45,084 bases of DNA from Bacteroidota bacterium (GTDB taxonomy: Bacteria > Bacteroidota > Bacteroidia > Cytophagales > Microscillaceae). The DNA is taken from contig RDXZ01000021.1 of NCBI GenBank assembly GCA_004293265.1, positions 1-45,084 on the forward strand, written 5' to 3'. The notes under the pieces were generated by a model. That model searched no databases, was not told the origin of the DNA, and saw only the letters and a list, made by a program, of their open reading frames with translations. A program made the position numbers and the translations under genes. Below, in pieces: positions 7,783 to 34,831 of the stretch (positions are counted from its first letter, which is position 1; each line of letters starts with the position of its first letter).

Positions 7783-8799
7783 CTATGTTTCTAAAATTTC
7801 TCTTACTTTTTGCTGAAGTTCTTGTTTATCGGGTAAATAAAGTTGATAACGCGATACAAAAAGATTATTTGTAATACCTCCTAAGGCATATTCAACCATT
7901 ACATCATTTTTGCGTGCGGAGAGAATAATACCAATAGGTTCATTATCGTCCTCTACATTTTCCTCTGTTTTGAAATAATTGATATACATATTCATTTGCC
8001 CAATATCTCCGTATGACACTTTTTGTAACTTCAAATCTATCAATACAAAACATTTCAAAATGCGATGATAAAATACTAAATCTACAAAATAATGCACACC
8101 ATCAAGCGTAATACGATATTGTTTGCCCATATAAGCAAATCCTTTACCTAATTCAAGCAAAAATTTTTGTAAATTTTCTATCAATTTTTCTTCTAATTGA
8201 CTTTCTTTTTTGAGTGTTTCTTCAGAAATTCCTAAAAATTCAAAAACATAAGGGTCTTTCAATATATCCTGTGGTAACTCATATTTTTGTCCTTCTTGTG
8301 ATAATTTTAAAACTTCCTCTTTATTTTTACTCAAAGCAAAACGCTGAAATAAAGCACTATCCATTTGCCTTTCTAATTCTCGTACACTCCAACTTTCGTT
8401 TATACATTGTTTTTCATAAAAACTTCGTTCCAAATCATCATGAATTGATAAAAGTGAAACATAATGCGACCAGCTCAATTGGTCAGACAGTGTCTGACTT
8501 TTTGGATATTTGAGATAGATAAGACGCATATAGACCAAATTGGTGCGGCTAAGACCTTTTCCACCTACTCTTTTACGCAAATCTTTAGAAACTTCCAAAA
8601 GAACTTTTTTACCATATTCGGATTTTATATTTCCTTTTTGTTCATATTCTATAACATATTGTCCGATGCGCCAATATCCTAATAACATAGTTGTATCTAT
8701 TGCTTTGCGTGCTTTTTGGCGTAAGATAAGGTATTCAGCCTCTAATATATCAATAAGTCTTTGATAATTGTTGTCTTTGGTAATACTTTGATTTTCCAT
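7783..8799 (-). CDS. DUF1016/YhcG-type PD-(D/E)XK nuclease
   Basis: A 338-residue, full-length DUF1016 protein. The N-terminal helical half has AIDTTMLLGYWRIGQYVIEYE and LSWSHYVSLL. The C-terminal nuclease half has GVHYFVDLVFYHRILKCFVL followed by IDLKL, giving the D...D-x-K pattern of the PD-(D/E)XK fold (about residues 235-255), then YGDIGQMNMYINYF. Family members are associated with mobile DNA and defence loci; the precise role is unsettled. Codon 104 is the centre of a perfect DNA palindrome (8482-8498), a feature shared with the truncated paralogue at 34454. It is a single-gene unit between bshC and a phage-like Bro-N gene. Confidence 0.88.
   Translation of the reverse strand: MENQSITKDNNYQRLIDILEAEYLILRQKARKAIDTTMLLGYWRIGQYVIEYEQKGNIKSEYGKKVLLEVSKDLRKRVGGKGLSRTNLVYMRLIYLKYPKSQTLSDQLSWSHYVSLLSIHDDLERSFYEKQCINESWSVRELERQMDSALFQRFALSKNKEEVLKLSQEGQKYELPQDILKDPYVFEFLGISEETLKKESQLEEKLIENLQKFLLELGKGFAYMGKQYRITLDGVHYFVDLVFYHRILKCFVLIDLKLQKVSYGDIGQMNMYINYFKTEENVEDDNEPIGIILSARKNDVMVEYALGGITNNLFVSRYQLYLPDKQELQQKVREILET
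8482..8498. repeat. Perfect palindrome inside the DUF1016 gene
   Basis: GTCAGACA-G-TGTCTGAC: two perfect 8-nt arms around one central base at 8490. The central base is the first position of codon 104 (Leu of QTLSDQLSW). The truncated DUF1016 gene has a different palindrome at the homologous base. Confidence 0.85.
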
Positions 8800-9047
8800 A
8801 ATTTTTTATGATGTTTTTTTGTTTGTGATTGATAAAAGGCGTGTAAGTCTGCGATTTGTTTAACTTTTCAAAAGCTTACAACTTTTGGAAAGTTTAGTTC
8901 TGATAAAAATATAAAAACACAAAGAAATCTTGTATTTTTATATCTTTTATTTTTTTAAGTATTTATTCCATAATTGATAAAATAGCATTTTTAAAAGACT
9001 TTTTTAGTAATATCTTGATGTTATGAGAAGTGTTTTTTTAGATTTTC

Positions 9048-9722
9048 TTAAAATTCTAATACTTTTGCTAATATATCTTTATGATAACCATTTACTTCAC
9101 CGAATTTTGAGTCGTGGATACGTATAATGGGCATAGCGGCTATCTCACTTGCTTTTTTTAGTTTTTTACCTAATTGTGCTGCTTGCGTTTGTGATAAATT
9201 CCAAACCTGTTTTTTCAAGGCATAATAACCTGCCAAACTCAAATAATCTTTGTTTACAGTATTGATTTGTCCTTCTATTTCACTAATGCGTGTTTCGTGA
9301 TTTTCGATTCTTTGTTGATGTTCTTGTAACTTTTTTTCATGTTCGACAAGTAATTGTACTGTTTCTAATAAAACTTCAACCTTACTTTTAGGTTCTAACT
9401 GATAACTACCTGTTTTGCGAATAGTTTCCACCACTTCAGCCACCCAATTAGTAAATTTTTCTGCTTCAGGCTTGTTACTTCTAAAAGCAAGTTTATAAAT
9501 AGCACGTTCATTGATAAACCATGTTTTTTGAACCCCTCCCAAAGTTTGGGAGTCCTCAAAGATTGCCCATTCTTTAGGAATTTGTCTTTGCCAGAGGCTA
9601 TCGGCTCCGCGCCAAGATAAATCAAGCATTTCAAAAATATCTTTAGCCATAAACCAGACTTGATTTTCATTTTCAATTACCCCAACTGATTTATCAAGGT
9701 AAGTTTTAATTGTTGTATTCAT
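9048..9722 (-). CDS. Bro-N / ORF6C antirepressor-like protein
   Basis: A 224-residue protein in two parts. The N-terminal Bro-N domain (about 1-100) has KTYLDKSVGVIENENQVWFM, AKDIFEMLDL, KTWFINERAIYKLAFRSNKP and FTNWVAEVVETIRKTGSY. A coiled coil (about 110-160) leads to an ORF6C-like C-terminal domain (ALKKQVWNLSQTQAAQLGKK, FGEVNGYHKDILAKVLEF). Such proteins are prophage-type antirepressors or DNA-binding regulators. The ATG at 9722 was chosen because it lies just behind a near-perfect promoter; a longer frame to 9773 would run through that promoter. It stands without other phage genes, so it is probably a moron or a stranded regulator. Confidence 0.88.
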   Translation of the reverse strand: MNTTIKTYLDKSVGVIENENQVWFMAKDIFEMLDLSWRGADSLWQRQIPKEWAIFEDSQTLGGVQKTWFINERAIYKLAFRSNKPEAEKFTNWVAEVVETIRKTGSYQLEPKSKVEVLLETVQLLVEHEKKLQEHQQRIENHETRISEIEGQINTVNKDYLSLAGYYALKKQVWNLSQTQAAQLGKKLKKASEIAAMPIIRIHDSKFGEVNGYHKDILAKVLEF

Positions 9723-9742
9723 AATTTTTAAAATAATTTTTG

Positions 9743-9801
9743 CAAATATAAACAAGGTATTGCAAAAATGCAATTAAATTGTATAAAAAATATGCAATAC
9801 C
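9743..9801 (-). promoter_or_regulatory. Promoter and operator-like repeats of the Bro-N gene
   Basis: On the minus strand a -7 box TATATTTG (9743-9750) is separated by 20 nt from a TTG (9771-9773), ideal Bacteroidota spacing. Between and beyond these lie inverted copies AGGTATTGCA (9755-9764) and TGCAATACCT (9792-9801), plus the smaller palindrome ATTGCAAAAATGCAAT. An arm of the repeat falls within the promoter spacer, so a bound repressor would block transcription. Autoregulation by the Bro-N protein is a reasonable inference. Confidence 0.6.
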
Positions 9802-9833
9802 TGTAAATATTTTAATTTGTAATAACAACAAAC

Positions 9834-9881
9834 AAGGTATAAAACTACAATTTTTAGATAAATCTTGTAGTTTTATACCTT
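9834..9881. terminator. 16-bp hairpin after the small membrane protein gene
   Basis: AAGGTATAAAACTACA and its exact reverse complement flank a 16-nt loop. It lies 26 nt past the stop of the minus-strand gene at 9907-10206. No strong T-run follows, so it may instead be an operator: AAACAAGGTAT occurs here and also at the Bro-N promoter 80 nt away. Confidence 0.5.
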
Positions 9882-9906
9882 ATGTGTTACTTATTTATTT
9901 TAATGA

Positions 9907-10206
9907 TTATTCCTGCTTGTTTTTTGTAATCAAAAATAAACTACCTATTAATAAAATGGCAAGTATTATATCAACAATGTTCCATAATTCTCTACCCAAT
10001 GAGATTTTAGTAATCGGATTTATCAACAATGCAGCCACTATCCAAACAAAAAATAATATCTTATTTTCGTTATCTTTTTCGCAGAAGGCTAAAAAAGCAA
10101 ATCCTAACATTCCCAAAAATCTAACCATTTGAAAATAAGCATAAGGCATTTTTGTTAAACACAACAACAACAAAAATGCTAAAATAATTTTAATGGTTTT
10201 TTCCAT
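9907..10206 (-). CDS. Small four-helix membrane protein, possibly DUF6804-like
   Basis: A 99-residue, almost entirely hydrophobic protein with about four membrane helices: IKIILAFLLLLCLTKMPYAY, MVRFLGMLGFAFLAF, ILFFVWIVAALLIN and IVDIILAILLIGSLFLIT. The MPYAYFQMVRFLG segment recalls the small DUF6804 family (from memory, not certain). It lies just outside the 48-bp repeat that bounds the neighbouring cassette, so it probably belongs to the ancestral sequence downstream of metH. Function unknown. Confidence 0.7.
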   Translation of the reverse strand: MEKTIKIILAFLLLLCLTKMPYAYFQMVRFLGMLGFAFLAFCEKDNENKILFFVWIVAALLINPITKISLGRELWNIVDIILAILLIGSLFLITKNKQE

Positions 10207-10228
10207 TTTTAAATATTTTTATACTTCT

Positions 10229-10276
10229 TTACCCCCTAATCATAATTCAAAACAGGTCTTAACCACTTCTCCGCTT
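10229..10276. repeat. 48-bp direct repeat, left copy (att-like)
   Basis: Identical over 48 bp to 14247-14294. The right copy holds the last 41 nt of metH and 7 nt beyond; this copy lies in non-coding DNA just past the DUF262 gene. The identity stops abruptly on both sides (10228 T against 14246 A, and ATTC against CCTC after the repeat), as expected for attachment-site duplication. Confidence 0.9.
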
Positions 10277-10300
10277 ATTCTTCTTTTACTTGATAGCAGT

Positions 10301-11890
10301 TTATGTCTTTTCAAAATAAGAAAAATTATCAATAAATTCTTGTTCTTGTTGTTGGATAATAATTCCTCTTTTTTCAAGAAATTCATTTATTTTATCAACA
10401 TCTTTTTCTGTTTCATTTTCAATCTGTTTATAAAGCGTTTGTAATTCTTTGGTTAAAAAATATTTTGATAGTTGTTCTTCTTCCAAAGTCAAAATAAAAT
10501 CTTTGATTTCCCTTTTGTTTTTATCACTTTCAAATTCAGAACTTAATCTAAATATCATGTTGGAAGGAGTTTTATCTTTTTTATTGAAAATAAAAAATTC
10601 TTTTATACTTTCTTGGGTTTCAAGTTCCGCCCCTTTACAGATATTATTTAAAAAAAATAATTGTAATGCTTTTGGTCGTACTCCTGTAAAGTTTAGTTTT
10701 TCAGGGAAATCCAACACAGTTAGTTTAGTTGTTTCTAAAAGACCATGTTCGTGTTCATCATTTATAAAATTAACAAATAACCTATATGCTGAACGTTGCT
10801 GACTTGGTGAATAAATAGTAAAATAGTTAGAATAAGTTGTAATCCAAAACCATTTTTCTAAATCTTTTAATTTTTCTTCGGTAGGATTAGGATTCAAGCG
10901 AAAAAAATTAGCAATAAAAATAAATTGAGTGGGATAAGGCAAAAAACCAATATTTATCATAAAAATCCGTTCATATAAAAATTCTACTGCTTTTTTTATT
11001 TGAATAAAGGTGTTTTTGCTTAATTCTTCCAAATTAAATTCTGATAAACTTTCTATTTCCACATCAAAATAAACTTTGTCTTTTGCATTACAAATACAAT
11101 ACAAGATAGTATCTCTTTTTAATTTCTCAAAGTTATAAGTTTGCAATTTTGTTAAAAAAATATCTATTTCATTAGTTAATAAAAATTCTGTTTCATTGTT
11201 ATATGCTAATGCAGATAACATAAAATCAGGTGAAATATCCATTCCTGTAGAATTAACACGAGAAAATATTTCCACTGCACTTTTTATATCACCTCCTCGT
11301 ATTTCAGTATAAGGAATTTCATAATCATATAATATTTTGGTTATTGCTTTGGCATTATCAATTAAAATTCTCGTTTCACTTTTTTCCAAATTTTGATTTT
11401 CTATCTCTCTCAAAAAATCTAAAAATAGATAAGTATCAACTATTTTGTATAAGGGCATTAAATAATACTCTTCATCTTTTTGCTTAGAGATAGAAACAAA
11501 CTCTTTCGTTTTTAAATTGTAATATATGGAAAACTTACTTGTTTTGTTTTCTTTCTCATTTAATACATATTTTTGGGGATTTGCTAAGACTGCAAACAAA
11601 GTAGTAATTCTTTGTGAACCATCTAAAATATAGAGAGTGCGTGTAGGGTGTGCTTCTACTTCATAAATACCAATATTTTTTTTTACAGGATATTTTTGTT
11701 CAGGTCGCCAAAATAAAAAACTTCCCATAGGATAATCTTTGGCTATACTATCAAATAAATCCATAATTTGCTTGGTTTCCCAAACAAAATCTCTTTGAAA
11801 AATAGGAATTTGTATTTCTCCATTTCCCACATTTTCTAAAAGATTCAATAGTCTAATTTTGTCAGGTTTTACGCTTATTTTACTTTCCAT
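10301..11890 (-). CDS. DUF262-domain protein (GmrS-like fold)
   Basis: A 529-residue protein with the DUF262 signature: IQIPIFQRDFVWETKQIMDL (residues 27-46), MGSFLFW (55-61) and LDGSQRITTLFA (89-100). The fold is related to ParB/Srx nucleotide hydrolases and is found in GmrSD-type DNA-modification-dependent restriction. The DUF1524 HNH nuclease that usually follows in GmrSD is not seen. The C-terminal half is alpha-helical and ends in a Glu/Gln-rich stretch. It is the last gene of the cassette, 2 nt after the TOPRIM-like gene, so translation is probably coupled. The partner genes suggest a multi-protein nuclease system rather than a stand-alone type IV enzyme. Confidence 0.88.
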   Translation of the reverse strand: MESKISVKPDKIRLLNLLENVGNGEIQIPIFQRDFVWETKQIMDLFDSIAKDYPMGSFLFWRPEQKYPVKKNIGIYEVEAHPTRTLYILDGSQRITTLFAVLANPQKYVLNEKENKTSKFSIYYNLKTKEFVSISKQKDEEYYLMPLYKIVDTYLFLDFLREIENQNLEKSETRILIDNAKAITKILYDYEIPYTEIRGGDIKSAVEIFSRVNSTGMDISPDFMLSALAYNNETEFLLTNEIDIFLTKLQTYNFEKLKRDTILYCICNAKDKVYFDVEIESLSEFNLEELSKNTFIQIKKAVEFLYERIFMINIGFLPYPTQFIFIANFFRLNPNPTEEKLKDLEKWFWITTYSNYFTIYSPSQQRSAYRLFVNFINDEHEHGLLETTKLTVLDFPEKLNFTGVRPKALQLFFLNNICKGAELETQESIKEFFIFNKKDKTPSNMIFRLSSEFESDKNKREIKDFILTLEEEQLSKYFLTKELQTLYKQIENETEKDVDKINEFLEKRGIIIQQQEQEFIDNFSYFEKT

Positions 11891-11892
11891 TT

Positions 11893-12897
11893 TTATATGA
11901 TTTTAGCGATTTTTAAAAGGATTTGTTCTATTTCCGAAATTTCAATAACATTACCATTATTAGTTTCAAATGATATTTTATGATGCTCGCATCTTTTTTC
12001 AAGTAATTGATAAGAAAAATTCATTTCAAATATTTCAGGAAATTTTTCTTTTATTTTCTCTTCTTTTAATCCAGTATTTGATTTATCATATTTTAAAAAA
12101 TCCAATGTGCTTGGTTGCAAATTTTGTAAATATTCTTTTTGTTCGTTTGTTAATCCATAAATTTTAATAAAAACTTGTTCCAAAGGTGCATAGTTTTCTA
12201 ATGCTCTTTTGTGCCAAATGTGCCAAATAATTTTGTCAGTTGTTTCCCAATTTGTATTTTCAGATTTATCAACATTTTTTATAAAACCAATCATTTTTTT
12301 TTGAGTATTTGCTAAAGTACCATTTACTTTTTCTTTATCGTTATCAAAAATCATAAATAATTTATAACATTCAATATTCTGAAATTGTAAAGAACCAACG
12401 TAGTACTCTAAATTTTTTTTCATATCACCTGTACCTCCTCCTTCTGTTCCTATCCATTCATTTTCAAAAGCCTTTTGAATGAGTACATAAATACTTTTTC
12501 TTTTTGGGTGATTTGTATATTTATCGCAAATACCTTTTAAAAATTTCTTTTCATTTAGTTTATTTTCAACTAAAAGCAAAGACCTTTCTTTTAGTATTCT
12601 TAACGCATTATAAGGCGAAACTTCATTTTCATTGTTACCAATCACAATTTTTGTTAAAAATTGTTTATGTAATGTTGTTATATTCGCTTTTTTTTGTAAT
12701 TTTTTTGATAAATCTTGTAATTCATACTTACCAAAATAGGATTTAAAAGGTTCTTTTTCAAAAACCCATTTATCATAATCATCTTTTAAATTTTGAGTAA
12801 TTACAAAATGCTGTTCTTGCCCCAGTAAAACTAAAATTTGCTTTAAAGTATCAAAATGTGCTTCTTCAAAAACAGAAGCGTTAAAATCAAAAATCAT
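11893..12897 (-). CDS. TOPRIM-like protein, partner of AAA ATPase
   Basis: A 334-residue protein without a clear family name. A TOPRIM-like core can be traced: LLLVENKLNEKKFL with Glu111, GGGTGD at 153-158, and LFMIFDNDKEK with Asp185 and Asp187. That gives the Glu ... Asp-x-Asp pattern of OLD/RNase M5-type TOPRIM nucleases. The N-terminal 100 residues (MIFDFNASVFEEAHFDTL) are of unknown fold. Its start overlaps the ATPase stop by 4 nt (ATGA), the arrangement of split OLD-type or PARIS-type ATPase/TOPRIM pairs. It differs from Gabija, where ATPase and TOPRIM are fused. The nuclease assignment is inferred from motifs only. Confidence 0.7.
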   Translation of the reverse strand: MIFDFNASVFEEAHFDTLKQILVLLGQEQHFVITQNLKDDYDKWVFEKEPFKSYFGKYELQDLSKKLQKKANITTLHKQFLTKIVIGNNENEVSPYNALRILKERSLLLVENKLNEKKFLKGICDKYTNHPKRKSIYVLIQKAFENEWIGTEGGGTGDMKKNLEYYVGSLQFQNIECYKLFMIFDNDKEKVNGTLANTQKKMIGFIKNVDKSENTNWETTDKIIWHIWHKRALENYAPLEQVFIKIYGLTNEQKEYLQNLQPSTLDFLKYDKSNTGLKEEKIKEKFPEIFEMNFSYQLLEKRCEHHKISFETNNGNVIEISEIEQILLKIAKII

Positions 12898-14177
12898 AAT
12901 TTAGATTTATTTTTTTTGGCAAGTGCTTTATCCATTGCGTACATTTCCTGTAAATTTTCATTAAAAGCATCATCAAACCAATCGCTCAAAGTTCCTTCTT
13001 CATCAATCGTAATTGGCGTTATTTTCTGACCTCCATTTTCATTTTCATCTACCCAATAAATGATAATATCATCTTTTGTAAAACCAAAATCATTGTCAAT
13101 TACCAACTTACGAAGCCTCAAAAGTATATTTTCTGCGTGGGTTTCTATCACAAAAGTTTGATTATTGGTTTTGGCTGATTTTGCAAAAAGTTCTGCTAAA
13201 TCTGCATGTGCAAAAGTATGCAAATGTAATTCAGGTTGTTCTATGACCACAATAGAATCCTCCACATACATAAAAGCACGCACCACCAAAGGCAATGCTT
13301 GGTGCATTCCTTGCCCTACATCTGCTAAATTTACTTTTATATCGTTTTTTGAAAGTAAAAACTCATAAAATGAATTATTATCTTTTATTTCTAATTTCCA
13401 ACCAAATTTTTCTTCATACCAATTACTTACTTGGTTATAAATTGAGTTTTCATCATCTTTACCTGATAAATAACTATCAATTAAGACTTGATAGGCATCT
13501 TTACCGTTTGTACTTACACTTTTATATTCGGTTTCTCCTTCAAAATAATAATGTCTTTTGGGTAAAACTCGAAACGGTTCGATGTAATCAATTTCAAAAT
13601 CATTTAGAATAATATTATCAATGAAAGGAAAAAACTCTAACATATTCTCAAAATTCGTATGACTTATATCTAAGTCTTTATAATTTCTAATATTTTTATA
13701 ATTTTCATAAAAAATATTTAAGTTTGGTAAAAAACCTCGTAAATCTATGAATACTTGTTTTTCATCTTTAGTATGAAAAATATTTTTTTCTTTTGAGTAT
13801 TCTATAAAATCTCCGTTATTAAGTAACATTCTCCACTCCAAAAATTCAATTTTATGTGAGTTTATTGGCTGAATAATTTTTACAGATAAATTTGAATTAT
13901 TTTGATATTCAATATTAAAACTAATAGGCGAATTAGGTTCTCTACCATATACTAAATCTCTAAACTCCGCTCCAAGTTCTACGCCATAATTATTTAATAA
14001 CAAAGGGGCATCTATACGCCTTGAAAGTGAATTATCCAATAAAGTAAATAGTTTAGTGATTACACTTTTTCCTGAACTATTTTTGCCCAATAATAGCGTA
14101 ATAGGTTTTAGTTCCAAAGTTTGTTTTTCTTTGAAGGCTTTGTAATTTTCAAAAGAAATAGATTTTATTTTCATCAT
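12894..14177 (-). CDS. SMC/OLD-like AAA ATPase
   Basis: A 427-residue ABC/SMC-type ATPase. Residues 1-45 hold IKSISFENYKAFKEKQTLEL and Walker A LLLGKNSSGKS (28-38). An ABC-signature-like stretch NLADVGQGMHQALPLVV comes near 290, Walker B SIVVIEQPELHLH near 310 and the H-loop VIETHAENILLRLRKL near 340. A D-loop region and the C-terminal WVDENENGGQ...GTLSDWFDD are typical of AAA_15/DUF3696-type defence ATPases. It is the first gene of the cassette. Translation starts at 14177 or the adjacent ATG at 14174. It probably acts as the sensor or motor for the TOPRIM-like partner. Confidence 0.88.
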   Translation of the reverse strand: MMKIKSISFENYKAFKEKQTLELKPITLLLGKNSSGKSVITKLFTLLDNSLSRRIDAPLLLNNYGVELGAEFRDLVYGREPNSPISFNIEYQNNSNLSVKIIQPINSHKIEFLEWRMLLNNGDFIEYSKEKNIFHTKDEKQVFIDLRGFLPNLNIFYENYKNIRNYKDLDISHTNFENMLEFFPFIDNIILNDFEIDYIEPFRVLPKRHYYFEGETEYKSVSTNGKDAYQVLIDSYLSGKDDENSIYNQVSNWYEEKFGWKLEIKDNNSFYEFLLSKNDIKVNLADVGQGMHQALPLVVRAFMYVEDSIVVIEQPELHLHTFAHADLAELFAKSAKTNNQTFVIETHAENILLRLRKLVIDNDFGFTKDDIIIYWVDENENGGQKITPITIDEEGTLSDWFDDAFNENLQEMYAMDKALAKKNKSKL

Positions 14178-34453: not shown

Positions 34454-34831
34454 ATGCAAACCCTCTACCAAAACATCCGCCTCACCATTTTAGAGGCAAA
34501 ACAGAAAGTAATTACCACAGTCAATGTAGCAATGTTGGAGGCTTATTGGCAAATAGGTCGATATATTGTAGAAGAAGAACAACAAGGAAAGCACAAGGCA
34601 GAATATGGAAAACAACAAATGCAAGAATTAGCCAAAAAACTAACAAAAGAATTTGGTAGTGGCTTTGACCGTAGTAACTTGTTGAGAATGAAGAATTTTT
34701 ATCTTCTTTTTCCAATTCGTGACGCAGTGCGTCACGAATTGACTTGGACGCATTACCGTTGTTTACCCAATATAACAAACGAAAAAACAAGAGAATTTTA
34801 TATACAAGAAACGATTACAAAACGAAAATAA
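34454..34831 (+). pseudogene. Truncated DUF1016 (YhcG-type) gene inside the cmr operon
   Basis: The 125 residues match only the N-terminal helical half of DUF1016 proteins: VNVAMLEAYWQIGRYIVEEE, KAEYGKQQMQELAKKL, FDRSNLLRMKNFYLLFP and LTWTHYRCLPNI. The reading frame ends after REFYIQETITKRK, before the C-terminal PD-(D/E)XK domain seen in the full-length relative at 7783-8799. It sits between the CARF gene and cmr4 with short spacers (26 and 22 nt), so it is still co-transcribed. Either it is a decaying insertion, or the helical half has been kept for a binding role. Codons 87-97 overlap a perfect 29-nt palindrome. Confidence 0.75.
34713..34741. repeat. Perfect 29-nt palindrome in the truncated DUF1016 gene
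   Basis: Two exact 14-nt arms (CAATTCGTGACGCA and its reverse complement) around one central base at 34727. The central base is the first position of codon 92 (Val of RDAVRHEL). The aligned base in the full-length DUF1016 gene is the centre of the unrelated palindrome at 8482-8498. Confidence 0.9.

Follow-up and report, generated by a model that had tools for sequence, protein, structure and literature searches.

Genes of the DUF1016 (YhcG) family carry a DNA palindrome whose letters differ from gene to gene and whose centre stays at one codon position, and the best explanation, to which we assign a probability of roughly 0.8, is that each protein recognises, as its cognate DNA site, the palindrome carried by its own gene. 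The centre and the symmetry are conserved across the family, a residue-to-base code links the protein to the palindrome, and the code also holds for palindromes found off the canonical position. In the open-access literature we found no paper on palindromes in DUF1016/YhcG genes, and the open-access papers found assign no function to YhcG/DUF1016.

Two palindromes and their host genes

The window, the whole 45,084-nt stretch of DNA analysed, contains two DUF1016 genes. By Pfam, the product of the full-length gene has both family domains, DUF1016_N (2.5e-39) and YhcG_C (2.9e-59), together with an HTH_ParB match of 20.4 bits, just below the cutoff of 22.6, while the product of the truncated gene matches DUF1016_N (5.7e-37) and not YhcG_C. 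A first-pass annotation of this DNA had described a perfect palindrome in each gene, different in sequence and centred on the same codon base, and both are present as described: the 17-nt palindrome is centred at 8490, base 1 of codon 104 of its gene, the 29-nt palindrome is centred on base 1 of codon 92, and both centres lie 18 nt ahead of the Trp codon. A Markov-1 model of the window predicts ~3.5 odd palindromes whose arms reach 8 nt or more, so the 17-nt palindrome alone is unremarkable; the 29-nt palindrome exceeds what chance yields, none having arisen in 60 simulated windows. The reality of the observation rests on the centre shared across the family, not on the 17-nt palindrome alone. 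The annotation had also proposed looking for the palindromes as dispersed repeats in the same genome, and here the outcome was negative: in the 4.03-Mb source genome, CAGACANTGTCTG has a single site, the 17-nt palindrome, and GTGACGCANTGCGTCAC, belonging to the 29-nt palindrome of the truncated gene, likewise occurs once.

The truncated gene has a Cas_APE2256 gene on one side and a RAMP gene on the other, each ~25 bp away. The neighbours of the full-length gene (7783-14177) are Bro-N, GmrSD_N and AAA ATPase genes, an arrangement that resembles a defence cluster.

Table 1 Features of the two DUF1016 genes in the window; residue and codon numbers of the domain and contact regions are those of the full-length product
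Feature	Position	Strand	Remarks
Full-length DUF1016/YhcG gene, 338 aa	7783..8799	-	ParB/Noc-like DNA-binding domain and PDDEXK nuclease (Pfam, AlphaFold, fold comparison)
PDDEXK nuclease domain, codons 193-322	7834..8223	-	Predicted EndoMS/NucS-like fold, Z 11.4
Putative third contact region, codons 139-140	8380..8385	-	Covary with bases -3, -2
Putative second contact region, codons 108-116 (LSWSHYVSL)	8452..8478	-	Residues 111, 114 covary with bases -3, -4
17-nt perfect odd palindrome GTCAGACAGTGTCTGAC = GTCAGACA-N-TGTCTGAC	8482..8498		Proposed own recognition site
Proposed recognition helix, codons 84-97	8509..8550	-	Residues 86, 89, 90 covary with bases -7, -9, -5
Truncated DUF1016 gene, 125 aa, DNA-binding part only	34454..34831	+	Inside type III-B CRISPR (cmr) operon
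29-nt perfect odd palindrome CAATTCGTGACGCAGTGCGTCACGAATTG	34713..34741		Same alignment position as the 17-nt palindrome of the full-length gene

A palindrome at one codon position across the family

We surveyed 240 non-redundant DUF1016_N genes of several bacterial phyla, archaea and viruses, drawn from relatives of the window genome, 80 genomes across phyla, viral contigs, and samples of Pseudomonadota, Bacillota, Cyanobacteria and one archaeal phylum, the phylum names of these last samples being read from the named loci taken as centres. A site was scored as symmetric when at least 7 of the 8 pairs at positions 2-9 around the centre were complementary. With the centre 18 nt ahead of the Trp codon, 179 of the 240 genes pass, while no alternative centre in the range -45 to 0 yields more than 2. 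When synonymous codons are redrawn according to the codon usage of the gene concerned, the kind of control that had been suggested for detecting an excess of palindromes, 5.3 +/- 2.3 genes pass (maximum 12 in 200 draws), and swapping half-sites between genes leaves 8.8 (maximum 17). The earlier claim that symmetry and centre are conserved while the DNA differs thus extends to most of the family. Chance or codon bias, to which the 17-nt palindrome taken by itself could be ascribed, is refuted by the 179 genes observed under a synonymous null of 5.3, and its probability is practically nil.

The arm letters at the canonical site vary widely (GTGAGACA-C-TGTCTCAC, TTCCAGACA-C-TGTCTGGAA, CTCTCAACA-G-TGTTGAGAG and TTCTCCAACAG-G-CTGTTGGAGAA, among others), and the palindromes of close relatives differ by compensated pairs. 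The longest perfect arms there are 14 nt, and no length change occurs at this site. The palindrome encodes approximately residues 98-108, between the helices of residues 85-97 and 110-116.

The symmetry is that of DNA

Independent mismatch events within the palindromes comprise 19 A-C and 12 G-T. The sense strand thus shows no preference for G-U pairs, which argues for symmetry of the DNA rather than for an mRNA hairpin. In addition, the pair at +/-1, which a hairpin with a 1-nt loop does not allow, shows complementarity in 76% of cases compared with 35% expected, again indicating symmetry of duplex DNA. The first-pass annotation had proposed selection or a mechanism acting on DNA or RNA symmetry; these results support the DNA part and do not favour the RNA part. 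An mRNA hairpin that controls translation or is cut by the DUF1016 protein is extremely improbable in our estimation, for although perfect arms could form an RNA stem, the mismatch spectrum opposes it and some palindromes sit outside the ORF altogether.

Protein residues covary with palindrome bases

Couplings are ranked here leaving aside codons that overlap the palindrome, with residues numbered as in the full-length product of the window, and residue-base counts were taken from the representatives of 113 clusters at 75% identity. The pair 108/-12 tops the coupling ranking, but residue 108 overlaps the palindrome; the pairs coupled most strongly are otherwise 86/-7 (MI-APC z of 11.0), 111/-3 (8.9), 139/-3, 90/-5, 114/-4 and 140/-2. 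Base -7 is G in 32/32 clusters with Arg86 and C in 10/10 with Lys86, while Ser86 goes with T in 33 clusters and with C in 10. Towards the centre, Arg90 is accompanied by C at -5 (23/27), Arg or Lys114 by C at -4 (29/29), Lys or Arg139 by C at -3 (26/27) and Arg140 by C at -2 (74/75). Such pairings bear the marks of contact chemistry, made by residues that lie outside the segment encoded by the palindrome.

As residue and base are linked in one gene, shared descent inflates their covariation, an effect that tests on sister pairs and on a tree lessen and cannot abolish. Among 75 disjoint sister pairs, residue 86 and base -7 change jointly in 14 and singly in 4 and 2 (p=7e-10). On a tree built without the tested residues (1112 tests), 22 of the 37 substitutions at base -7 share their branch with a change of residue 86 (p=4e-13), 16 of the 25 changes of base -3 coincide with changes of residue 111 (p=7e-13), and the 139/-3 coupling has p=1e-8. 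The learned code also holds out of sample: all 20 genes whose palindrome is off the canonical place, flanking or displaced, score positive; they total 86.6 bits, whereas shuffling the pairs gives -69 +/- 27.5, and none of 2000 shuffles reached the observed total.

Predicted fold of the encoded protein

A search of the PDB by sequence alone found no relative. In the AlphaFold model of the full-length product (mean pLDDT 81), residues 1-53 form essentially a single long helix and residues 37-156 match the DNA-binding domains of Noc and ParB, with middling Z values of about 8-9, among them 8.8 over 103/105 residues for the Noc DBD-DNA structure 6y93; no ParB/Srx CTPase domain was detected by Pfam. 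The nuclease residues D240 and K257 are invariant in 63 sequences. The DNA-binding domains of ParB and Noc bind palindromes as dimers. In ParB, R173 of the recognition helix touches outer base 1 (Jalal et al. 2020, PMC7383237), and in Noc, R186, which equals position 201 in ParB, touches inner base 6 (PMC7383237). These published contacts follow the same outer-to-inner order as the covarying residues of DUF1016, and the published ParB motif G-x-S with R173 resembles DUF1016 residues 82-86, a correspondence that we would map residue by residue only provisionally.

Palindromes away from the canonical position

Where a gene has an insertion ahead of LSW, its palindrome is shifted and often accompanied by decayed tandem copies reading QTLSG, QTPSG or QTVFG. 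Extra copies exist in some genes, 183 nt downstream in one subgroup, ahead of the start in L363, L014 and L041, or directly past the stop. The +183-nt spacing, equal to 61 codons from the first palindrome, is seen in L014, L028, L033 and L057, and in L057 the second palindrome departs from the first by compensated bases. At L129, palindromes at -360 and +768 of the site flank the ORF; each is the exact reverse complement of the other, and both are unlike the internal palindrome in sequence. The region ahead of the gene is where one would look for an operator, yet few genes (5 or 6) repeat their own palindrome there, and an upstream operator copy was rejected as a general rule.

In the Lachnospiraceae genes L136 and L139 the canonical site is non-palindromic, and two palindromes 1100 bp apart (1370, 2470) flank the ORF. 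Homology of the DNA between loci begins or stops at the outer edge of a palindrome in L136, L139, L130 and L171, all of Lachnospiraceae. No clear palindrome was found in 20 of the 40 genes lacking the canonical one.

Across genomes, CAGACANTGTCTG is present in 13 of the 14 searched, at DUF1016 genes if G1125:C167:5487-5499 is left aside, and all 16 loci retrieved from the 13 genomes are inside or beside DUF1016 ORFs. A scan of viral sequences with four palindromes returned 32 contigs, one of which carries a DUF1016 gene; the other matches are, in our judgement, close to what chance would give in a collection this large. Six viral contigs (L346, L347, L350, L352, L354, L359) have TCCAGACANTGTCTGGA in an ORF with the motif PDTVWN..PW.WA.DW, unrelated to DUF1016, and are possibly RNA phages.

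E. coli yhcG and the apparent mobility of the gene

Of the 5,426 E. coli genomes that are complete, many contain yhcG at least partly, and 3,307 have a place that covers 80% or more of the yhcG region. The yhcG alleles have one to three internal palindromes plus one 3' of the gene, and there is about one CAGACANTGTCTG site per E. coli genome. At the first internal site (gene position 316), the 7 Lys86 alleles have C at -7 and the 3 Arg86 alleles have G. The palindrome 3' of the gene violates this rule, with C and G occurring with either residue, and the 86/-7 claim in E. coli is therefore confined to the internal site. In this 3' palindrome the differences come as compensated pairs (TGC..GCA, TCC..GGA), and several genes, yhcG included, contain palindromic units that stand in tandem and have partly decayed. 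These two observations lend partial support to the earlier suggestion of serial replacement by palindromic units.

In strains that lack yhcG, the interval from gltD to nanQ still contains GAATTCGCCAGACAGTGTCTGGCGAATT or a near variant of it. L383 (3942-4010) and L389 (1742-1810) have a perfect yhcG-type palindrome there, and in the K-12-like strain L394 one follows gltD and precedes gltF.

Relatives that are 90-96% identical in DNA and lie in different contexts share homology from within ~25 bp of the start codon to about the stop codon; the pairs L104/L108, L110/L121, L119/L122 and L154/L181 show such ORF-limited homology in unrelated contexts. DUF1016 genes thus appear to move as bare ORFs, into the operons of other genes.

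Discussion

That the palindrome could be a binding site of the nuclease itself had been raised from the window sequence, and the covariation code, the out-of-sample test, the E. coli alleles and the predicted ParB/Noc-like fold together support it strongly. The DUF1016 protein very probably binds its own site, and presumably does so by physical contact as a dimer assembled on the palindrome. An N-terminal domain of the ParB/Noc type would occupy both half-sites in the form of a symmetric dimer, with the helix of residues 84-97 reading outer bases -5 to -9 and residues 109-114 and 139-140 reading inner bases -1 to -4. Since reader and site would belong to one gene, they would travel and evolve jointly; a change in a reading residue would be matched by base changes on both arms, so that the sequence drifts while symmetry and centre persist. 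The most likely use of such a site would be as a portable intragenic operator, where the protein, by occupying the sequence that encodes it, would stop transcription and keep the amount of a dangerous nuclease in check. We favour autoregulation because an operator inside the ORF would accompany a gene that appears to move as a bare ORF; as the purpose of the site we put it at slightly less than even odds, and it leaves unexplained why strains lacking yhcG keep the palindrome.

Alternatively, the protein may bind and nick or cut the palindrome, with repair keeping the arms symmetric, multiplying the units and spreading the gene in a homing-like manner. We regard this as possible and rather unlikely. 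It is consistent with the conserved PDDEXK residues, the decayed tandem units, the compensated changes at the non-coding E. coli site, the palindrome at the yhcG-less gltD-nanQ site, the flanking palindromes at which homology begins or stops in Lachnospiraceae and the confinement of homology to the ORF in close relatives, but a gene retaining its intact site would itself be cut, unlike the genes of homing endonucleases. DUF1016 would then be a self-addressed site-specific nuclease, a modular ParB-like reader with a legible residue-to-base code and its matching target in its own ORF, acting on its own locus perhaps by limiting itself, by remodelling a hypervariable loop or by spreading itself, and paralogs in one genome would hold separate, non-overlapping addresses.

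Two further explanations carry less weight. Selection for structure rather than sequence, as a cruciform or single-strand DNA hairpin (for example, junction binding by a resolvase-like nuclease), would suit arms that vary highly while symmetry holds and that reach 14 nt when perfect. It is improbable, however, as pure structure reading does not predict a residue-base sequence code, second sites carry the sequence of the first, and the +/-1 pairs exceed the null though unable to pair in a hairpin. A mobile palindromic element, of the kind of the Rickettsia palindromic element or REP, inserted by happenstance in DUF1016 genes would leave tandem units and flanking copies, both of which occur; even so, the tested genomes contain no dispersed copies, the length at the canonical site is constant and the palindrome sequence is tied to protein residues, making this origin very improbable. 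Recognition of the palindrome by the protein of the same gene remains the preferred reading.

YhcG/DUF1016 is spread through bacteria, some archaea and phages, and our result offers it a candidate ligand, its own gene. The residue-to-base code comes with many natural variants and is testable, directly so in E. coli K-12. It would amount to a natural experiment in which a DNA-binding protein and its site change jointly inside one gene, and it is a rare case of long DNA symmetry kept within protein-coding sequence across phyla.

Comparison with known systems

The ParB-parS and Noc-NBS systems share with DUF1016 a symmetric palindromic site and, if the predicted fold with its middling Z is right, the fold of the DNA-binding domain; in all of them a residue of the recognition helix, a proposed one in DUF1016, goes with an outer base and a later helix with an inner base, and few residues would suffice to switch specificity. 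A palindromic cognate site with residue-base specificity, as in ParB and Noc, is what the computation finds for DUF1016. The systems differ in that DUF1016 has a PDDEXK nuclease instead of the ParB CTPase domain, its palindrome is odd with a free central base, its site lies in or beside its own gene, and paralogs within one genome would differ in specificity. KorB of plasmid RK2, a ParB homologue with a ParB-type helix-turn-helix, represses at short palindromic operators, and DUF1016 would resemble it in its predicted helix-turn-helix type and in its short palindromic sites; KorB operators are, by contrast, dispersed upstream of genes, and KorB lacks a nuclease domain.

Homing endonucleases resemble DUF1016 as genes for site-specific nucleases that are apparently mobile, cleavage being putative in DUF1016. 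They normally destroy their own site through insertion, the gene interrupting its target, whereas DUF1016 keeps the site intact inside the gene in 179 of 240 cases. REP elements with their RAYT transposases and Rickettsia palindromic elements likewise involve palindromes tied to a gene family or lying within ORFs, the latter elements being ~100-150 nt long (PMC4316617); those of DUF1016 are, unlike these, short and not dispersed, and they occupy a fixed codon position and are coupled to residues of the protein.
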